Assembly (NCBI RefSeq): GCF_002975405.1
Contig: NZ_PCPS01000008.1
Coordinates: forward strand, 62,001 to 126,000
Source: Arthrobacter sp. MYb229
GTDB taxonomy: Bacteria > Actinomycetota > Actinomycetes > Actinomycetales > Micrococcaceae
DNA: 64,000 bases
Direction: 5' to 3'
Shown: positions 38,939 to 41,647 of the stretch, in pieces
How positions within the stretch are numbered: the stretch's first letter is position 1
How the letters are laid out: each line of letters begins with the position of its first letter
Made by a program: the position numbers and the translations under genes
Notes under the pieces: generated by a model
What the model saw: only the letters and a program-made list of their open reading frames with translations
What the model was told of the DNA's origin: nothing
The model's database searches: none

Positions 38939-39970
38939 GTGGCTGATATGTATTACGAAGACGACGCCGACCTCTCAATCATCCAGGGTCGCAAGGTAGC
39001 CGTCATTGGCTACGGCTCCCAGGGCCACGCACACGCACTGAGCCTGCGCGACTCCGGCGTGGACGTCACCGTCGGCCTGGCCGAGGGCTCCAAGTCCCGC
39101 GCCAAGGTCGAGGCCGAAGGCCTGAAGGTCGCCACCGTGGCCGAGGCCGCCAAGTGGGCAGACGTCATCATGATCCTGACCCCGGACCAGGTCCAGGCCC
39201 AGGTCTACGCCGAGTCGATCGCCGAGCACCTCGAAGAGGGCAACGCCCTGTTCTTCGGCCACGGCTTCAACATCCGCTTCGGCTTCATCCAGCCACCAGC
39301 CAACGTTGACGTGGCCCTGGTAGCTCCGAAGGCACCGGGCCACACCGTACGCCGCGAATTCGAAGCAGGCCGCGGCATTCCGGACCTGATCGCAGTGGAG
39401 CAGAACTTCACCGGCGGCGCCAAGGAACTGGCACTGTCCTACGCAGCAGGCATCGGCGGCACCCGTGCCGGAGTCATCGAGACCACCTTCACCGAAGAGA
39501 CCGAAACCGACTTGTTCGGTGAGCAGGCTGTGCTGTGCGGCGGCACCTCGCAGCTGGTGCAGTACGGCTTCGAAGTTCTCACCGAAGCCGGCTACAAGCC
39601 AGAGATCGCCTACTTCGAGGTGCTCCACGAGCTGAAGCTGATCGTCGACCTGATGTGGGAAGGCGGCATCGCCAAGCAGCGCTGGTCGATCTCCGACACC
39701 GCAGAGTACGGCGACTACGTCTCCGGCCCACGCGTGATCACCCCAGAGGTGAAGGAAAACATGAAGGCTGTGCTGGCCGATATCCAGTCCGGCGCCTTCG
39801 CCACCCGCTTCATGGAAGACCAGAAGGCCGGTGCCCCGGAATTCAAGGCACTGCGCAAGAAGGGCGAAGAGCACCCAATCGAGACCACCGGCCGCGAACT
39901 GCGCTCGCTGTTCTCCTGGATCTCCGATTCCTCTTCGGATGACTACGTGGATGGTTCCGTAGCTCGCTAA
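38939..39970 (+). CDS. ilvC: Ketol-acid reductoisomerase (NADP+)
   Basis: A 343-residue class I enzyme that isomerises and reduces acetolactate or acetohydroxybutyrate. The NADPH site reads [20 protein letters not shown]. The knotted C-terminal domain contains [20 protein letters not shown], with the Mg-binding acidic residues. The start is a GTG at 38939, with AAGGAG at good spacing. The last 117 coding bases plus the stop form one arm of a 120-bp direct repeat whose second copy is at 41528-41647. The present ilvC 3' end may therefore have come in with the island that follows. Confidence 0.97.
39851..39970 (+). repeat. Direct repeat, left copy (ilvC 3' end)
   Basis: These 120 bp, the last 39 codons of ilvC plus TAA, recur at 41528-41647 with only two differences: C39925 corresponds to G41602, and T39968 (first base of the stop) to C41645. 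Bases on either side of the match do not align. Together the copies bracket an AT-rich segment of 1557 bp. Confidence 0.97.
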
Positions 39971-40002
39971 TTGCAGGCTTTGAGTTAATCCAGTAACTAA
40001 AC

Positions 40003-40049
40003 GCCGCTGGCCCTAGCGATTGAAAAATCGTGCGGGCCAGCGGCTTTTT
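40003..40049 (+). terminator. Terminator after ilvC
   Basis: A perfect stem has 11-nt arms (40003-40013 and 40034-40044), an inner CGATT/AATCG pairing and a five-T tail. It starts 33 bp after the ilvC stop and lies inside the island. Confidence 0.9.
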
Positions 40050-40081
40050 GCTGTCGACTTGTCCATTTAGTGATCGGGTGC

Positions 40082-40240
40082 ATGAAACAGGAGGAGATTA
40101 ATTCAGATTTCCGGGGTTGCAGTTTTATTCTTTCTCTATTCAATGATATTTTGGGCATAAAATGGCTAAAGTATGCAATTAGGATGGGTTCCTTTTGGTA
40201 TTGCATTGGATGGAAGGTCTTTGGGTTCATTGACTTCTAA
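40082..40240 (+). CDS. Possible small hydrophobic ORF inside the island
   Basis: A 52-codon frame starts MKQEEINSDFRGCSFILSLF and continues with a strongly hydrophobic, aromatic-rich sequence including WYCIGWKVFGFIDF. A frame of this length is somewhat unexpected in such AT-rich DNA. There is no clear Shine-Dalgarno. It overlaps the left part of a small inverted repeat at 40229-40246. Weak support; it may be chance. Confidence 0.2.
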   Translation: MKQEEINSDFRGCSFILSLFNDILGIKWLKYAIRMGSFWYCIGWKVFGFIDF

Positions 40241-40252
40241 GTCAATATTTTT
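40229..40252 (+). terminator. Terminator-like inverted repeat before the island genes
   Basis: ATTGACTT and AAGTCAAT (40229-40236 and 40239-40246) form a hairpin followed by ATTTTT. It could end transcription entering from the left or serve as an operator for the gene at 40340. Confidence 0.4.
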
Positions 40253-40292
40253 ACAATTTTCTGTAAAATTTATCCAAAGATACATAAAATAG

Positions 40293-40298
40293 TATATT
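40293..40298 (+). promoter_or_regulatory. Candidate -10 for the island genes
   Basis: TATATT lies 42 bp before the GTG start at 40340, with TTATCC 17 bp upstream of it. In AT-rich DNA such matches are common, so support is weak. Confidence 0.3.
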
Positions 40299-40339
40299 GT
40301 GAATAGATCGAAGTAGTTTTAGCCACTTTTGGAGGGTTT

Positions 40340-40966
40340 GTGTCTGCTGATATGGTCGTTCCGACCGAAGAAGTTACAGTTTCAAAAACTGCGGTTAAGG
40401 ACTTACTATCTGGTCTATCTGGTCCGGAGAAATCGCAACTTTCTGACACGATCGGATGCGTCCAGGAGCAACTGCATTCACATTTAGAGAAGTACGCGCG
40501 AGCAGCCCTTGAAGAATATTCGAGAATGGTTTTGGGGCAGAAAGTATACACACGTGGGTCTGACGTGCGCGAATACCGCCTGTATCTACTAATACGTTAT
40601 GTTTATGATGATAGATTGCCCTCTGAGAAGCAGATTTGTGAAACTTTCCAAGTTACATCGTCTCAGGCTCGCAGCCTACTCCGAGCAGTGATGTCAAAAT
40701 TCCAATATGAACTTAAAACAGCAATCGATGCCACTTTATTGGACGCATTGAACCATTGTGTCCCTGTGGCTTCCGAAGATGCTAATTGTGATCTGACTTT
40801 TACTCCAGAATCCGAAAACATCGTGACCTCACTGAATGAAATTTTAGGAAGACTAAACGGAAACCTACAGCCCATCGTTCGCCAACGGCATTCTGTCAAT
40901 GTATGCGAAGTGAATCGGGAATCCTACCAGGAACTAATGAAGCACTTGGCAGTAGATGCTGGATAG
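40340..40966 (+). CDS. Unrecognised soluble protein of the ilvC island (gene A)
   Basis: A 208-residue protein without signal peptide or membrane helix, starting at a GTG with GGAGGGTTT upstream. The middle part is mainly helical. Residues ~75-125 (EYRLYLLIRYVYDDRLPSEK, then ICETFQVTSSQARSLLRAVM) look like a helix-turn-helix or winged-helix segment. The C-terminus contains RQRHSVNVCEVNRESYQELM. I recognise no family. The stop overlaps the next gene by 11 bp, so the two act together. The base composition differs sharply from the chromosome, indicating transfer. A regulatory or sensing role is only a guess from the HTH-like segment. Confidence 0.65.
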   Translation: MSADMVVPTEEVTVSKTAVKDLLSGLSGPEKSQLSDTIGCVQEQLHSHLEKYARAALEEYSRMVLGQKVYTRGSDVREYRLYLLIRYVYDDRLPSEKQICETFQVTSSQARSLLRAVMSKFQYELKTAIDATLLDALNHCVPVASEDANCDLTFTPESENIVTSLNEILGRLNGNLQPIVRQRHSVNVCEVNRESYQELMKHLAVDAG

Positions 40967-41387
40967 TATTATTGCAATATTTGCACTAATCGTTACGATC
41001 CTTACTGCCTTGTATTCGGTCTGGTGGCCGAGTATTAGAAGTGCCATCAACGAGCCAAACCGTGGGACAAGAGGTGGCGTAGGATCTCAGTATGCACATG
41101 TCCTAGGTCTCTTGAGAGCTCAGGTGATGCCACTAGCAGTGGTGTCTTTGATGACGACGATAGCTCTACTTCCAGTAATTTTTTCAGAAGTTATCTTTAA
41201 GACGTTAGAGAGTCTGGATAGTAACGGGTTGTCTGTTCGGTTGTATGACCCACTGCAGGCTCTTTTCGTAATTGTTTATTTATTTAGCATTTACTTGACC
41301 TATCTCGTTGTTCGCCTTCTCATCGAAATCTCAGCGAAGGGTAAGTCACTGAAGAATAAGTTGAGTGAATTTCCAAAGACGACATAA
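40956..41387 (+). CDS. Unrecognised membrane protein of the ilvC island (gene B)
   Basis: A 143-residue protein with three hydrophobic helices: residues ~4-24 (SIIAIFALIVTILTALYSVW), ~57-78 (VMPLAVVSLMTTIALLPVIF) and ~100-122 (PLQALFVIVYLFSIYLTYLV). A basic C-terminal tail (ISAKGKSLKNKLSEFPKTT) follows. There is no known domain. Its start lies inside the end of gene A (11-bp overlap), so translation is coupled. A small membrane protein beside a cytoplasmic HTH-like protein in a transferred cassette is a layout seen in some defence or toxin systems, but nothing here proves that. Confidence 0.65.
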   Translation: MLDSIIAIFALIVTILTALYSVWWPSIRSAINEPNRGTRGGVGSQYAHVLGLLRAQVMPLAVVSLMTTIALLPVIFSEVIFKTLESLDSNGLSVRLYDPLQALFVIVYLFSIYLTYLVVRLLIEISAKGKSLKNKLSEFPKTT

Positions 41388-41527
41388 TAATCGCAGAATA
41401 TGAAAGTTGCCCAGAGCTGTTGGATAGAACGGATTTCGCTTCGCTTAATTCGATTTGGTATGTGCGCCTTCCGGCACGAACCCGTTCCGTGGACGGACTT
41501 TCTATAAATGACGTATAGTTCAATAAC

Positions 41528-41647
41528 CTGCGCAAGAAGGGCGAAGAGCACCCAATCGAGACCACCGGCCGCGAACTGCGCTCGCTGTTCTCCTGGATCT
41601 CGGATTCCTCTTCGGATGACTACGTGGATGGTTCCGTAGCTCGCCAA
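41528..41647 (+). repeat. Direct repeat, right copy (orphan ilvC 3' fragment)
   Basis: This copies the last 39 ilvC codons and has no start. Against 39851-39970 it differs at two positions: a silent TCC-to-TCG change, and the stop TAA changed to CAA. It is followed after 28 bp by its own terminator, which may be the original ilvC terminator. Confidence 0.95.

Follow-up and report, generated by a model that had tools for sequence, protein, structure and literature searches.

The 3' end of ilvC occurs twice in the window (the whole 64,000-nucleotide stretch of DNA that was analysed), once in the complete gene and once as an orphan fragment on the far side of an AT-rich insert with two genes, here called A and B (Table 1). 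With moderate confidence, we read this arrangement as an insertion-duplication scar left by ordinary homologous recombination, without a site-specific mobile element. The evidence for this reading comes from the repeat itself, from three sister cases in the family, from the kind of differences between the paired copies and from an empty site in a relative of one sister case.

Table 1. Features of the ilvC region in the window.
Feature	Position	Strand	Basis or remark
ilvC, ketol-acid reductoisomerase, complete	38939..39970	+	Pfam KARI_N and KARI_C; ORF
Left copy, duplicated ilvC 3' end, stop TAA	39851..39970	+	Repeat comparison
Left terminator hairpin	39999..40048	+	Hairpin; DNA match through the hairpin in G001, G002, G008 and G013
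AT-rich insert, GC 0.423	40054..41527	.	GC scan; DNA-level match in 0/17 congeners
Candidate promoter of A-B	40230..40257	+	10/12 matches; as a class not above chance expectation
Gene A, 208 aa, helical with an HTH-like central part	40340..40966	+	ORF; weak match to GntR, E 0.12
Gene B, 143 aa, predicted to form three long helices	40956..41387	+	ORF; start overlaps the end of A
Right copy, orphan ilvC 3' end, CAA at the stop position	41528..41647	+	Repeat comparison
Right terminator hairpin, T-run on + side	41676..41722	+	Hairpin, 28 nt past the stop position of the orphan
First right-flank gene, polysaccharide pyruvyl transferase family	41764..43023	-	PF04230

When the window was compared with itself, the two copies were identical at 118 of 120 nucleotides (E 6e-54). 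They were the only full-length copies in the assembly (4.0 Mb, 23 contigs), where a third full copy was not found and the remaining matches were of at most 29 bases; a chance repeat is ruled out by these values, and the 120-bp tail repeat with two differences reported in an earlier note on this DNA was borne out. One difference, a silent third-position C/G exchange, lies 46 bases upstream of where the stop codon ends. The other is the TAA to CAA change at the stop position of the orphan; that note had likewise given one change as silent and the other as a stop turned into CAA. The repeat ends at the ilvC stop codon, and the 3' UTRs behind the two copies are unlike each other in the window genome. 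In both copies a strong + strand hairpin with a T-run lies 28 nt beyond the stop position; a stricter terminator scan listed a + strand terminator there for the left copy only.

The DNA between the copies is AT-rich, as had been claimed: the GC content of the window as a whole is 0.598, and in 1251 sliding windows of insert size the value never fell below that of the insert. Genes A and B overlap by 11 nt. Their matches in Pfam and PHROGs were all weak (best E 0.016, under the curated cut-offs where these are given), and neither had a match in NCBIfam or PADLOC; for these two genes and these four libraries, the statement that the island lacks an integrase is correct. Comparison of A and B with the sequences of solved structures (best E 0.011) and a search with the predicted fold of B (best E 3.1) gave nothing firm, the structure model of A was too poor for use (mean pLDDT 49.9), and in Rfam nothing came close to the gathering score. 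B is probably a membrane protein, and A-B would be a regulator/membrane-protein pair without a name in any library.

To look for similar arrangements, 315 genomes of the family were searched with the last 39 residues of ilvC. A match was found in 313, and two matches were found in four: the window genome, G088, G166 and G224, the latter three spanning two other genera. In these three genomes the second copy lies 3' of a complete ilvC on the same strand, which rules out that the arrangement is unique to the window genome. With the end of the stop codon taken as zero, the duplication extends from about -120 to 0 in the window genome (98.3% identity), from -394 to +85 in G224 (95.4%), from -137 to +11 in G166 (75.8%) and from -79 to +40 in G088 (90%). 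The spacing of the copies is 1677, 1161, 945 and 3236 in the window genome, G224, G166 and G088, respectively, with 1557, 681, 796 and 3116 bases between them. The inserts are unrelated among the four cases (sister range 0.7-3.1 kb): that of G224 encodes one 218-residue protein without a Pfam match, that of G088 a GMC oxidoreductase and an AraC-type regulator, and that of G166 contains no clear gene but five ORFs without a Pfam match. G166 is a single contig, G224 and G088 are 160-contig drafts, and the contamination of G224 is 5%. The insert and the flank of G166 are also present in G124, where no orphan is recognisable, so the history of the G166 case must be more complex.

The control was a search of the same kind with the 39 C-terminal residues of ilvD. 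They matched 228 of 280 genomes, with two matches in none of them; the difference between 4/313 and 0/228 is not significant (Fisher p 0.11), and therefore we make no claim that ilvC is special. In the literature searched we found no paper joining ilvC with a genomic island or a hotspot. Self-comparison of 350,722 bases (the window and relatives) brought up no more than two further direct repeats within 8 kb; the decayed pair of G166 was missed in this comparison and was found with a shorter word. One of the two repeats, in G224, is a perfect 395-base tandem-like direct repeat near ilvC (L091, 4272-5068), which may be real or an effect of assembly. The other is a pair of tRNA-Lys (ctt) sequences in the window (11668-11748 and 13661-13741; 81 bases, 98.8% identity), bracketing about 1.9 kb of AT-richer DNA (GC 0.48-0.56) with a 273-residue ORF (12405-13226). 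The DNA bracketed by the tRNA-Lys pair is a candidate for a second insertion-duplication in the window.

The differences between paired copies were sorted by codon position. A functionless fragment would mutate at all codon positions. This is what was seen in the old orphan of G166, which has 13 differences at position 1, 8 at position 2 and 12 at position 3, besides an internal stop. In the three younger cases all sense-codon differences are silent and in the third position (six of six coding differences in G224, three of three within the repeat of G088, and the only one in the window genome). At one third for each, the chance of 10 out of 10 is about 2e-5; if the TAA to CAA change is added, 10 of 11 are silent third-position differences, with a chance of about 1e-4. 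These observations indicate that in the younger cases both copies were recently the ends of functional ilvC genes, and the second, recently functional 3' end seems, from these comparisons, to have come from another strain. With a single sense-codon difference in the window genome, the two-allele argument depends on the sister cases. The copies of G224 differ from each other at 6 positions, as opposed to 16-36 differences from any of 12 congeners; being nearest to each other, they imply that any donor was close, and neither copy points to one.

Taking the codon data together with the arrangement, the preferred route is as follows. The incoming DNA would have carried the ilvC 3' end of a close strain, a terminator and, just 3' of these, A-B. 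A crossover by homology (RecA-type) would have occurred inside the resident ilvC, and the other, non-homologous end of the fragment would have been joined directly to a point within ilvC, by homology-facilitated illegitimate recombination; alternatively, the fragment could have been circularised and then taken in by a single crossover. The outcome would be a complete ilvC followed by the incoming terminator and cargo, and then the displaced orphan with its own terminator and flank. For the window genome we infer RecA-type recombination, a non-homologous join, and the left end with A-B as the incoming part. Long homology is found on one side of the new DNA, with the complete ilvC to the left and the orphan tail to the right, and the different 5' edges of the four independent-looking cases agree with non-homologous joining at sites that vary. 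Homologous recombination combined with either a non-homologous join or circularisation explains why the edge varies, why the inserts are small and why their cargo is mixed. A donor with A-B beside ilvC was not found among the 17 congeners. The window copies are near-identical in their coding part and have unlike UTRs, a combination not readily obtained from two alleles of a single species, so that for this case a previous replacement, a gene conversion or some similar additional event has to be assumed.

The earlier note had taken the arrangement for an element that integrated into the end of a gene and restored it, either a relic or served by a recombinase in trans. Integration at the gene end, with a complete ilvC on one side and a displaced orphan on the other, is supported, as the arrangement recurs in three other genomes; for an element that is site-specific we see no support. 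Islands and cis-mobilizable elements that sit at the 3' ends of genes share a constant core and require a recombinase, and a site-specific recombinase would be expected to make every duplication start, on its left, at the same core. The left edges found here (about -394, -137, -120 and -79) are scattered over more than 300 bases and leave no common core at that edge. No recombinase was detected among the scanned insert proteins of the cases, which together with the varying edges leaves both the relic and the service in trans without support. Larger, integrase-bearing islands at the ilvC site, which the note suggested looking for, were not seen among the 313 genomes, where the search with the ilvC C-terminus yielded the four small cases alone. 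An island lacking its own integrase (cis-mobilizable, CIME-like), with the ilvC 3' end as att site and the recombinase supplied in trans, would still explain why the gene is restored on one side with an orphan on the other, as in genomic islands and cis-mobilizable elements, and why the same gene end was used in four genomes, and a common core could sit within the last 79 bases of ilvC. The chromosome-type UTR and terminator of the left copy speak against it as well, and we regard such an island as rather unlikely.

The left UTR and terminator were traced in a set of 17 congeners (one genome per species), all of which have a single match to the ilvC C-terminus. A DNA query covering 39400-42900 matched only ilvC in these genomes, besides the left terminator in four of them (4/17; G001, G002, G008 and G013) and, in G008, a short match to a hairpin. 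The clade thus has 3' UTRs of the left type; the left terminators look chromosomal, and the idea that the left UTR and terminator are element-specific is not supported. In G224 and G088 the paired UTRs are homologous yet diverged, and the hairpins were kept in both copies.

The distribution of the left terminator could also be taken to suggest the reverse polarity, that is, that ilvC, the left terminator and A-B are resident, whereas the orphan, the right terminator and the polysaccharide genes are incoming. In line with this, tblastn (E up to 1e-3) did not find the first two right-flank genes in about 14 kb downstream of ilvC in any of the 17 congeners. At the DNA level, neither the island nor the right flank was found in these genomes. 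Further right-flank genes read as an exopolysaccharide region, and the immediate 3' neighbours of ilvC vary among species. Two large adjoining genes at 45028-50036 (with LuxR-like C-terminal ends by reading) had matches downstream of ilvC in 9 of the 17 congeners, and the next transferase in 7, which marks this part of the right side as a long-standing neighbour of ilvC. Against reverse polarity, gene A is missing from all 17 congeners, nowhere is the window as AT-rich as around A-B, and in the sister case of G224 the resident side is the right flank. On balance, reverse polarity is unlikely.

The assignment in G224 rests on an empty site. To the right of its orphan lies a universal stress protein gene (PF00582), homology to which begins 275 bases past the stop of the orphan. 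In the congener G108 a homologue begins 279 bases past the ilvC stop, which is the empty arrangement for G224. The agreement between 279 and 275 bases identifies the right-hand copy of G224 as the resident end, and for this sister case the arrangement agrees with the prediction that empty sites of relatives join the right-hand flank directly to ilvC. Elsewhere the best universal stress matches were at 0.8 kb (G197), 1.1 kb (G089) and 4.4 to 15.6 kb (six genomes), and the distant ones may be paralogues; in some congeners of G224 the gene is on another contig or absent.

Internal origin of the second copy, in which the ilvC 3' end was copied (in tandem or by templated synthesis) during break repair and A-B was captured alongside, would fit the near-identity of the window copies in their coding part and the end of the repeat at the stop codon, but it is very improbable: the DNA past the UTRs is unlike in the window genome and in G224, which also rules out a simple tandem duplication, and silent-only differences together with diverged UTRs, as seen between the copies of G224 and G088, are not expected of a recent internal copy.

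Recombination of the preferred kind has precedents. Homology-facilitated illegitimate recombination was proposed for the type VI effector-immunity modules of Vibrio cholerae, where displaced 3' ends remain (PMC5361080). The modules resemble the ilvC cases in that a 5' homologous anchor imports genes and the older 3' end is shifted downstream, leaving orphan tails; they differ in that the ilvC anchor is a housekeeping gene restored intact, with a cargo that matches no effector-immunity pair in the libraries. In E. coli, both homology-facilitated illegitimate recombination and circularisation with a single crossover were reported (PMC3240628). As at ilvC, single crossover of a circularised fragment leaves the new DNA flanked by a directly repeated homologous segment whose 5' edge is random; it was shown with conjugated plasmids, whereas at ilvC circularisation would be deduced from the product only.

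Relatives of gene A were rare. None was found in 294 other genomes of the family, and one among 395 other genomes of the phylum, in the distant actinobacterium G802 (37-38% identity); another, with 27% identity, is on a plasmid of the gammaproteobacterium Pseudoalteromonas donghaensis. No relatives were found in viral contigs, phage records or genome contigs. Among 393 other genomes of the class there was one weak partial match (G434; 47 residues, E 0.0076, inside a 1035-residue open frame), which was left uncounted. Next to both relatives of A lies a short gene, and the products of these two genes align with B at 20-26%; the link of B to these products (blastp E 0.054) rests mainly on position and architecture. 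By these searches, the A-B family appears to be rare and to occur in two distant lineages.

The surroundings of the two relatives differ. In G802 (L052, 320-6000) the pair adjoins a 979-residue STAND-type NTPase that matches the candidate defence models PDC-M54A (E 1.3e-19) and Avs2, and it also lies beside a HEAT-repeat protein. Neither A-B nor the G802 pair matched a PADLOC model of the described anti-phage defence systems. A defence role for A-B is a guess prompted by the neighbour genes. The Pseudoalteromonas pair (L049, NZ_CP032091.1, 5204-7027) lies among small genes with attC-like repeats between them, possibly a cassette array, in which it recalls integron gene cassettes. The attC-like label is a reading by eye, and one of three such stretches folds better than shuffled sequences; no integron integrase is annotated in the 46 kb of this region that were inspected, and, unlike in integrons, none is encoded among the proteins of the ilvC island.

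A bolder idea, which we consider quite unlikely, is that in Micrococcaceae mini-islands without an integrase land preferentially at the ilvC 3' end and that A-B is a phylum-hopping two-gene defence module. If this were true, each mini-island would bring along an ilvC 3' end and a terminator of its own to provide the homology, and would spread via recombination at a housekeeping gene, and A-B would be a sensor or regulator with a membrane effector. The scar is ordinary in kind; what is new is that it recurs at a housekeeping gene, together with the still nameless A-B, a rare pair common to two distant actinobacteria and one gammaproteobacterium. Insertion-duplication scars can pass for the footprints of integrase islands, and an orphaned tail of a core gene that departs from the intact gene at silent sites only offers a simple, searchable mark of gene uptake without a mobile element.
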